Shown one piece after another: positions 23,056 through 59,199 of a DNA stretch of 64,000 nt. The notes below the pieces were generated by a model that was not told where the DNA came from, made no database searches, and saw only the letters and a program-made list of their open reading frames with translations. The position numbers were made by a program, and so were the translations under genes. This stretch comes from a bacterium (lineage in GTDB: Bacteria; Patescibacteriota; Saccharimonadia; Saccharimonadales; Saccharimonadaceae): NCBI GenBank assembly GCA_027451105.1, contig DAIDKB010000024.1, forward strand, positions 1-64,000, read 5' to 3'. Within the stretch, counting starts at the first letter, position 1, and each line of letters starts with the position of its first letter.

Positions 23056-23232
23056 TGGCAGAGAGAATAGGATATCACTTCGCTCCTCCGCTTGCTTACA
23101 AAAATATGTAAACACATTTTTGTTTCACGACGCTACGCCAAACCTTGCGACTTATGTTGCACAAAAGCATCGCAGGTTCAAACCAGAAATTGCAGTCAAT
23201 TTAAAAGGCGACCGAATGGTCGCTTTTTAAAT
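23056..23232 (-). repeat. tRNA-associated composite palindromic element, copy A
   Basis: Directly downstream of tRNA-Ser(GGA). In tRNA orientation it has the terminator hairpin (GCGACC-ATTC-GGTCGC, 23208-23223) and an inverted T-arm copy (23171-23184). The shared block GGCGTAGCG (23131-23139) follows, then a hairpin with a TGTTTACA loop, GCGGAGGAG and GATATC. It ends with a degenerate direct copy of the tRNA from the T-loop to the discriminator region (23056-23073). No protein is supported across it. Confidence 0.7.
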
Positions 23233-23322
23233 TGGCGGAGAGAACAGGATTCGAACCTGCGATAACGTTGCCGCCATACACGCTTTCCAAGCGTGCGCCT
23301 TCAACCGCTCGGCCATCTCTCC
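23233..23322 (-). tRNA. tRNA-Ser(GGA)
   Basis: 90 nt with encoded CCA. The 7-bp acceptor stem (GGAGAGA/TCTCTCC), long variable arm, T-loop GGTTCGAATCC and discriminator G fit tRNA-Ser. The anticodon loop TTGGAAA gives anticodon GGA, reading UCC and UCU. Confidence 0.96.
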
Positions 23323-55276: not shown

Positions 55277-55451
55277 GGCGGAGAGGGAGGGATTCGGTCA
55301 CGTTCCGCGACCCCGCGACTTCACGATTGGCAACCCAGTTGCCATCGGAAGGTCGCCTTGCGAAATGCCACTGGCATTTCTCACCCTATCGGGTTCGAAT
55401 ACTTCAATTCTCCAAATAGAAACGACGACCACAAGGATCGTCGTCGCTATT
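55277..55451 (-). repeat. tRNA-associated composite palindromic element, copy B (divergent core)
   Basis: Downstream of tRNA-Ser(CGA). In tRNA orientation it has the terminator (CGACGA/TCGTCG with AAATAG/CTATTT), an inverted T-arm copy (55390-55400, with an intact TTCGAA) and several hairpins, including GAAATGCCA/GGCATTTC and GGCAAC/GTTGCC. It ends with a direct 20-bp copy of the tRNA 3' part (55277-55296). It has the same plan as copies A, C and D but lacks their conserved core words. Confidence 0.6.
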
Positions 55452-55541
<90 letters not shown>

Positions 55542-56748: not shown

Positions 56749-56959
56749 TACCAAAGTAAAACCCCCACTAAAAAAGTGGGAATACTCGGCAAGATATCGG
56801 CCTTCGGCCTCCTCCGCTTATTCACGAAAAATTATAAATATTTTTTTCGCTTCTTGCGCTACGCCGAACCTATTTTTGCGTTACGCAAAAAAAGTCAGGT
56901 TCTCATCTGCGCAATGTGACCAAAGTAAAAACCCCACTAAAAAGTGGGGTTTTTACTTT
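56749..56959 (-). repeat. tRNA-associated composite palindromic element, copy C
   Basis: Downstream of tRNA-Arg(GCG). In tRNA orientation it has a 19-20 bp-arm terminator (56918-56937 with 56945-56963) and an inverted T-arm (from 56894). Next come an internal hairpin, GTTCGGCGTAGCG (56857-56869), a hairpin with a TATTTATA loop, GCGGAGGAG and GATATC. It ends with a direct copy of the tRNA 3' end (56784-56795) and a second copy of the terminator (56749-56780). Confidence 0.72.
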
Positions 56960-57036
56960 GGTGAACTCGGCAAGATTCGAACCTGCGACCTTTGGCTCCG
57001 CAAGCCAACGCTCTATCCAGCTGAGCTACGAGTCCA
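56960..57036 (-). tRNA. tRNA-Arg(GCG)
   Basis: 77 nt with encoded CCA. The acceptor is GGACTCG, the D-loop carries the Arg identity A20 (AGCTGGATAG), the anticodon loop is TTGCGGA and the discriminator is A. The anticodon GCG reads CGC/CGU without the usual ACG (inosine). Confidence 0.93.
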
Positions 57037-58924: not shown

Positions 58925-59106
58925 CGGAGGAGGGGAGATATCGCAAGCAAGCTTGCTCCTCCGTTCATTTGCTAGAAAATGTAAACACTTTCTAGCTTCA
59001 TTCGCTACGCCGAACTCCGCGCTCGTTCGCTATCCAGCGAACCGCGGGAGTTCGGATCTCAACCTGGCAAATTAAAAACGAGAACCGAAAGTTCTCGTTT
59101 TTAATT
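58925..59106 (-). repeat. tRNA-associated composite palindromic element, copy D
   Basis: Downstream of tRNA-Ser(GCU). In tRNA orientation it has a terminator (59074-59102) and an inverted tRNA 3'-end copy (59043-59067), followed by a nested hairpin (CGCGGAGTTCGG pairing around GTTCGC-N6-GCGAAC). GTTCGGCGTAGCG (58993-59005), GCTAGAAA/TTTCTAGC with a GTGTTTACA loop, CGGAGGAG and GATATC come next. It ends with a direct copy of the tRNA from T-loop to acceptor end (58925-58939). Confidence 0.72.
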
Positions 59107-59199
59107 TGGCGGAGGAGGGGAGATTCGAACTCCCGCTCCAGGTCTCCCCAGACTAATGATTTAGCAAACCATCCCCTTAAGCCACTTGGGTACCCCTCC
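59107..59199 (-). tRNA. tRNA-Ser(GCU)
   Basis: 93 nt with encoded CCA, long variable arm, acceptor GGAGGGG with one G-T pair, discriminator G. The anticodon loop TTGCTAA gives GCU, reading AGC/AGU. Confidence 0.95.

Follow-up and report, generated by a model that had tools for sequence, protein, structure and literature searches.

What lies directly behind the tRNA-Arg(GCG) gene of a Saccharibacteria bacterium, and how could it have come to be there? The window analyzed is a stretch of 64,000 nt of contig DAIDKB010000024.1 (assembly GCA_027451105.1), from a member of the Saccharimonadaceae (Patescibacteriota), and all support given below is sequence data. A first-pass annotation had described a composite palindromic element at this gene, and all the parts that it described were found on the minus strand (57036-56749). 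The order starts with the intact tRNA-Arg(GCG) (56959-57035; ARAGORN and Rfam RF00005), which would be both the target and the regenerated gene. It continues with a first palindromic terminator, T1 (AAGTAAAAACCCCACTTTTTAGTGGGGTTTTTACTTTGGT, 56919-56958, seen from inverted repeats and sequence), an inverted copy of the T-arm (56895-56912) whose T5' side is host-specific across 90 copies, and a small inner hairpin (56872-56894, from inverted repeat and fold). Sequence comparison then identified a direct copy of the T-arm 5' strand (the T5' copy, AGGTTC, 56866-56871), ending in GGTTC and followed by the word GGCGTAGCG, an AT-rich hairpin (hairpin 2, 56824-56850), whose stem is variable and covarying in the alignment, the conserved word GCGGAGGAG (56809-56817) and a further small hairpin (hairpin 3). 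After GAT, the tRNA 3' end resumes from the T-loop onward as ATCTTGCCGAGT; this displaced direct repeat begins at ATC of the T-loop (56784-56795) and leads into a second terminator, T2, a partial direct copy of T1 (56751-56783). The full covariance-model match of this copy, hereafter copy A, comprises the T5' copy, core A and the GAT/ATC junction (56793-56871, 84.6 bits). The element had been estimated at about 85 bp, a length that corresponds to the core inside the T-loop copy; the repeated unit, including the tRNA 3' end and terminator, is about 150-200 bp long and lies between two copies of the tRNA 3' end, the upstream tRNA being intact and the downstream fragment displaced.

The words, their order and the break point are common to two other copies in the window, both on the minus strand and both behind serine tRNA genes, in agreement with what had been noticed initially. 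Copy C (core A, 23071-23145, covariance model) lies behind tRNA-Ser(GGA) (23233-23322), with its 3' end copy at 23056-23073, and copy D (core A, 58937-59017, covariance model) behind tRNA-Ser(GCT) (59107-59199), with its 3' end copy at 58925-58939. The three A copies of the window score 78-86 bits, and a fourth one is found elsewhere in the genome, at a tRNA-Pro gene. The view of a single repeat family had to be revised, as at least two core families use the same site: behind tRNA-Ser(CGA) (55452-55541), the same site and layout house an unrelated core, named B (55288-55388, minus strand, 114.5 bits). In total, the source genome carries seven matches to the core A covariance model (R1) and ten to the core B model (R2), against about 41 tRNA genes; E-values of both models are rough.

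To assess the distribution of these units, 295 genomes of the same family, Saccharimonadaceae, were surveyed, covering 61 genera. This is the only taxonomic family covered in depth, mostly with one metagenome bin per species, and short-term polymorphism lies outside the reach of such a set. The two-word pattern GGCGTAGCG-N18-48-CGGAGGAG gave 36 matches in 25 of the 295 genomes, as compared with one for the reversed control, which is far above chance. With the R1 model, core A was detected in 108 of the 295 genomes and 36 of the 61 genera, and a single genome contains at most 12 copies. Within the source genus, 26 of the 28 genomes have it. Database records with true A copies belong to Candidatus Saccharibacteria or to unnamed bins; matches to the two-word pattern in other phyla are devoid of hairpins and chance-like. 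The link to tRNA 3' ends that had been suspected for a new repeat family was confirmed: 92 of the 108 A copies examined have an intact, same-strand tRNA gene no more than 300 bp upstream, and 20 isoacceptors are used, a count that depends on ARAGORN. The tRNA and the T-arm copy are spaced almost uniformly, at a median of 90 nt (83-98 from the 10th to the 90th percentile).

Confinement to tRNA 3' ends, which the annotation had proposed to check, was seen directly for these 92 copies. For nine of the copies that have no adjacent tRNA, the cognate gene lies on the same strand 1.5-8.2 kb upstream, separated from the copy by an island, and free transposition was rejected as their origin. These islands duplicate just the terminal 6-7 nt of the tRNA (e.g., GGAGCCA, CCGACCA); they are independent insertions separating the tRNA from the unit. 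Such islands, of 1.4-8.1 kb and located exactly at tRNA 3' ends, were seen at loci L294 (150-6020), L296 (7720-12600), L292, L300, L302, L304 and L310, and their repeats include CCA. Two of them carry large serine recombinases (PF00239 and PF07508) beside the tRNA, and one a TdeIII-type restriction-modification pair.

The stems of core A vary in sequence while the fold is retained. The alignment was structure-guided, MAFFT alone having misaligned hairpin 2. Among 110 distinct copies, 93.8% of the pair cells are standard, as compared with 72.6% after shuffling, and two-sided changes amount to 361 cells against 106 shuffled and 23-44 with partners slid. Covariation reaches a score of 0.565, as opposed to 0.21; the alignment was fitted to the model, which favors structure, and the slid controls partly share this bias. 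The covariance model and genome search suggested by the annotation thus yielded both further copies and covarying stems. A single conserved G.U wobble, present in 72 of the 110 copies, tentatively suggests folding of the tRNA-sense strand. Beyond this wobble, G.U and A.C are nearly even (55 vs 48), which speaks against such a strand preference in A. The motif GTAG precedes hairpin 2 in 66 of the 110 distinct A sequences, and GGAG occurs in 79. Rfam gave nothing above gathering score for core A or core B, the weak matches corresponding to the terminator palindrome. As a separate observation, most tRNA genes in the window and in relatives end in a terminator palindrome of unusual perfection, which pairs back to the CCA (CCAAA...TTTGG).

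Core B consists of three hairpins unrelated to those of A and is housed in the same frame, which is kept at tRNA-Ser(CGA) and at many other tRNAs: terminator, inverted T-arm, hairpin, T5' copy and tRNA 3' end. It was detected with R2 in 75 of the 295 genomes, and 26 of the best 30 B loci are located no more than 150 nt behind a tRNA. A and B occur together in 63 genomes (odds ratio 20). Pairing is again maintained in core B (98.2% of cells vs 81.3%, with 233 two-sided changes vs 49), a G.U pair is conserved in 40 of 45 sequences, and the T-stem of the host tRNA closes the three-hairpin core, with 97.8% paired. A longer B-like core, with GGCCGGAAG...CACTGAGGCGGGGTC, was found behind tRNA-Arg and tRNA-Ile genes (L328, 2552-2700; L329; L040; L179) and is probably a third structured subfamily.

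Comparison of orthologous tRNA genes gives clues regarding the history of these units. Across the genus, tRNA-Arg(GCG) is followed by A, B, a truncated A, remnants or no unit. Empty orthologous sites, which the annotation had asked for, do exist: in genome G198, tRNA-Arg(GCG) is bare and followed by the terminator AATAAAAAAGATGAG..., while G036 has a different, genus-type terminator, unit A, the tRNA 3' end and then the GATGAG terminator of G198. Either a gain in G036 or a precise loss in G198 would account for this pair. Presence that is identical in all relatives, with drift and no covariation, is thus not what was found, and neither was a lack of further copies. Copy A of the window is also carried, truncated, by G218, and it therefore predates the split between the source genome and G218. 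In G200, a new T1 follows tRNA-Lys(CTT), and the T2 beyond the unit is identical to the terminator of G000. T1 and T2 are exactly identical within G000 and within G206, and their sequence differs between the two genomes, which suggests duplication in place or gene conversion at these loci, and not a carried-in 3' end. Perfect direct duplications of 64, 63 and 56 bp, running from the T-loop through the terminator end, look like signs of recent events. Units are also stacked in arrays: B, a diverged A and a B remnant at tRNA-Pro in G101, A then a B remnant in G180, and B then an A remnant in G174. In all three arrays the most eroded unit is the last one. The displaced old terminators at two loci, the perfect duplications and this order within arrays argue for integration at the T-loop.

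The T-arm copies were then compared with the host tRNA. Both the inverted T-arm and the displaced tRNA 3' end that follows the core are closer to the local tRNA than to other tRNAs. The inverted T-arm matches the tRNA at 8.3 of 11 positions and the T5' copy of its own unit at 7.8 of 11, so there is no clear sign that inverted T-arm and T5' copy are kept complementary. We also considered a 'splint' model, with a double-stranded attP formed where the inverted T-arm spans the two halves of the T-arm. Host specificity was seen on the T5' side (17.5 vs 11.5) but was lacking on the T3' side beyond the loop (9.2 vs 8.7), and the model was thus not supported. Cores at the same tRNA in different genomes show no excess similarity (-0.006; 185 of 300 permutations were as high), and tRNA-specific lineages maintained by vertical descent were rejected on this ground. 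Host-matched T-arm copies around cores that do not cluster by tRNA are not what simple island-like integration would predict. Together with the identity of T1 and T2, this would mean either that the target serves as source of the flanks when insertion takes place, or that gene conversion is frequent, both among units and from T1 to T2 or back. Core swaps by intragenomic recombination between units could also be involved.

We consider it probable that units A and B are gene-less miniature integrative elements with the tRNA T-loop as attachment site. They are found behind many different tRNAs, vary in presence among relatives and are stacked in arrays; the earlier description of an att-like element devoid of cargo agrees with the regenerated tRNA, the displaced 3' end and the lack of genes. 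Each insertion would be a site-specific integration at the T-loop that regenerates the tRNA, as for a genomic island. A small circle or a folded single strand may serve as intermediate; since no recombinase is encoded by the unit, one would have to act in trans. Overall, the elements are probably moved in trans as a folded single strand.

We sought for a possible mover among three enzyme families, tyrosine recombinases (PF00589), reverse transcriptases (PF00078) and Y1 transposases (PF01797). The units contain no genes and are too short for any, an integrase included. The copy-rich, near-complete genomes G101, G124, G132, G148, G162 and G180 have a single PF00589 match each, of the size of a housekeeping Xer, and no dedicated tyrosine recombinase is co-distributed with the units in such genomes. 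Viral, phage and plasmid collections gave no convincing match (two viral pattern matches are devoid of hairpins and chance-like), and phages and plasmids were rejected as carriers. No free circle or excision product was seen in the sequences. These negative results count against the preferred reading. Among the candidates surveyed, a housekeeping Xer acting in trans is the best remaining putative mover, reached by elimination only. Xer is known to act on folded DNA in the case of the phages that use it.

A tentative alternative, to which we give less credence, is a target-templated insertion. The core alone would move, into a tRNA hairpin loop, and the T5' copy, the inverted T-arm, the 3' end and the terminator would be copied from the target by template switching or by an RNA/DNA-copying step. 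This would be consistent with flanks that match the host tRNA around cores unclustered by tRNA, with the identity of T1 and T2 in G000 and G206 despite their differing terminators, with duplications that stop at the terminator end, i.e., the transcript end, with an inverted copy no more similar to the T5' copy than to the tRNA, and with cores located in an anticodon loop (L420) or, inverted, in the inverted T-arm. However, the new terminator placed before the old one in G200 and G036 is material that does not come from the resident locus, and no PF00078 reverse transcriptase was matched in G000, G101, G124, G132, G140, G148 or G174. A broader version of this alternative, also rather doubtful, is that a structured gene-less core enters tRNA hairpin loops, builds its own flanks from the target and colonizes any isoacceptor without damage, with unrelated cores (A, B and the 5'-side anticodon-arm inserts described below) sharing one host-encoded machinery. 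A Y1 (IS200-like) transposase that acts on the hairpins of core A, with GTAG and GGAG at their feet as in REP/RAYT systems, is improbable. The frequency of these feet in A sequences and the enrichment of Y1 genes in element-bearing genomes (40 of the 50 Y1 genomes carry A or B; odds ratio 8, uncorrected for relatedness) would fit such a function. Nevertheless, no PF01797 match was obtained in 80 of the 120 genomes with A or B, including the near-complete and copy-rich G101, G148 and G114, the Y1 genes examined are flanked by palindromes of their own and not by A or B, and B uses the same site with no GTAG/GGAG feet as a feature.

The layout of the units is also that of the ends of tRNA-integrated islands, and islands with large serine recombinases are found at the same tRNAs; units could then be residual ends of larger islands that lost their genes. 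We regard this origin as quite unlikely, given a near-constant size over 100 copies, a covarying structure that is maintained and the lack of any full-length island with unit ends among those seen. Moreover, the islands that were found use a different site, the final 6-7 nt of the tRNA, and lie between the tRNA and the unit. Very unlikely is a function as structured RNA or tRNA decoy produced by read-through behind tRNA genes, a role that the annotation had envisaged and for which no positive evidence was found here. The sense-strand covariation, the conserved G.U pairs and the closing of core B by the host T-stem would be compatible with it. In contrast, the units are patchy at orthologous tRNAs, occur at twenty isoacceptors and come after a terminator, older array members are decayed, unrelated cores occupy the same site, and Rfam gave no match.

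How do the proposed miniature integrative elements compare with known systems? CIMEs and MITEs are gene-less elements moved in trans, and the units resemble them in being non-autonomous, small and present in many copies; they differ by their T-loop specificity over 20 isoacceptors and by the lack of the usual terminal inverted repeats, and no parent element with the same ends was found. Integron attC sites are structured single-strand sites of variable sequence and conserved fold, and their arrays grow at one end. The units, like attC sites and lone attC arrays, are fold-conserved, sequence-variable and arrayed with growth at one end, but they have no cassettes, their targets are tRNA genes, and the attC boxes GTTRRRY/RYYYAAC are found in none of the 110 A or 45 B sequences. 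CTXphi is an Xer-exploiting element that relies on the housekeeping recombinase, a folded single-strand site and a dif target. By analogy, a folded single-strand site of the units would be recognized by a housekeeping recombinase, with the tRNA T-loop as target instead of dif; the units have no phage genes and are known here from sequence alone. REP/BIME elements associated with RAYT are short hairpins with GTAG/GGAG feet in many copies. Family A consists of short hairpins in many copies as well, and GTAG or GGAG is present in 66-79 of 110 of its sequences; the units lie strictly behind tRNA genes, have no adjacent RAYT and mostly occur in genomes devoid of PF01797.

Islander recognizes islands in tRNA genes by the regenerated target and the displaced fragment (PMC4383910). 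Both hallmarks are present at the units, as is an unoccupied site in a relative (G036 vs G198). An intact upstream tRNA, a displaced 3' fragment, reuse of the site and tandem occupancy are shared with islands of this type (PMC4383910). Unlike them, the units carry no genes or integrase, have a fixed size of about 150-200 bp and a covarying structured core, and contain internal host-matched copies of the T-arm, one of them inverted. We found no prior description of such units in the open-licence papers searched. These hairpin-bearing noncoding units of about 150-200 bp thus appear to form an undescribed and widespread class of gene-less integrative element in Saccharibacteria.

If this is true, a large share of the tRNA genes in these minimal episymbiont genomes bears such an element, and essential genes can be colonized by DNA that has no genes of its own. 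Such elements would be a naturally occurring, minimal integration system with many targets. The units would account for stray pieces of tRNA 3' ends and for hairpins left without annotation in the genomes of Patescibacteria. The neighborhoods of tRNA genes would also be hot spots for true islands, such as restriction-modification and serine recombinase elements.

Several other arrangements were observed near tRNA genes. Genes encoding Y1 (IS200-like) proteins of about 210 aa, with near-perfect palindromes on both sides (e.g., AGAAGGTCCGTCCTTCT or GCAAGGATGATCCTTGC), are present at L189, L191, L194, L195, L197 and L198, and some adjoin tRNA genes. An inverted core A is located within the inverted T-arm at L266 (1145-1290 and 5776-5918) and L311 (3451-3525), and at L266 it is head-to-head with a direct core A. 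At L420 (around 1470-1720), a pseudo-tRNA-Gln upstream of an intact tRNA-Gln has a B core in its anticodon arm and a second one in its T-loop. Finally, mirror-image units on the 5' side are found upstream of intact tRNA-Gln genes at L230 (1168-1305), L284, L107, L063 and L066. In these, the promoter and the 5' half of tRNA-Gln (-37 to +29) recur as a 66-bp direct copy with 97% identity, and an insert of 67 bp comes next, at the anticodon arm.
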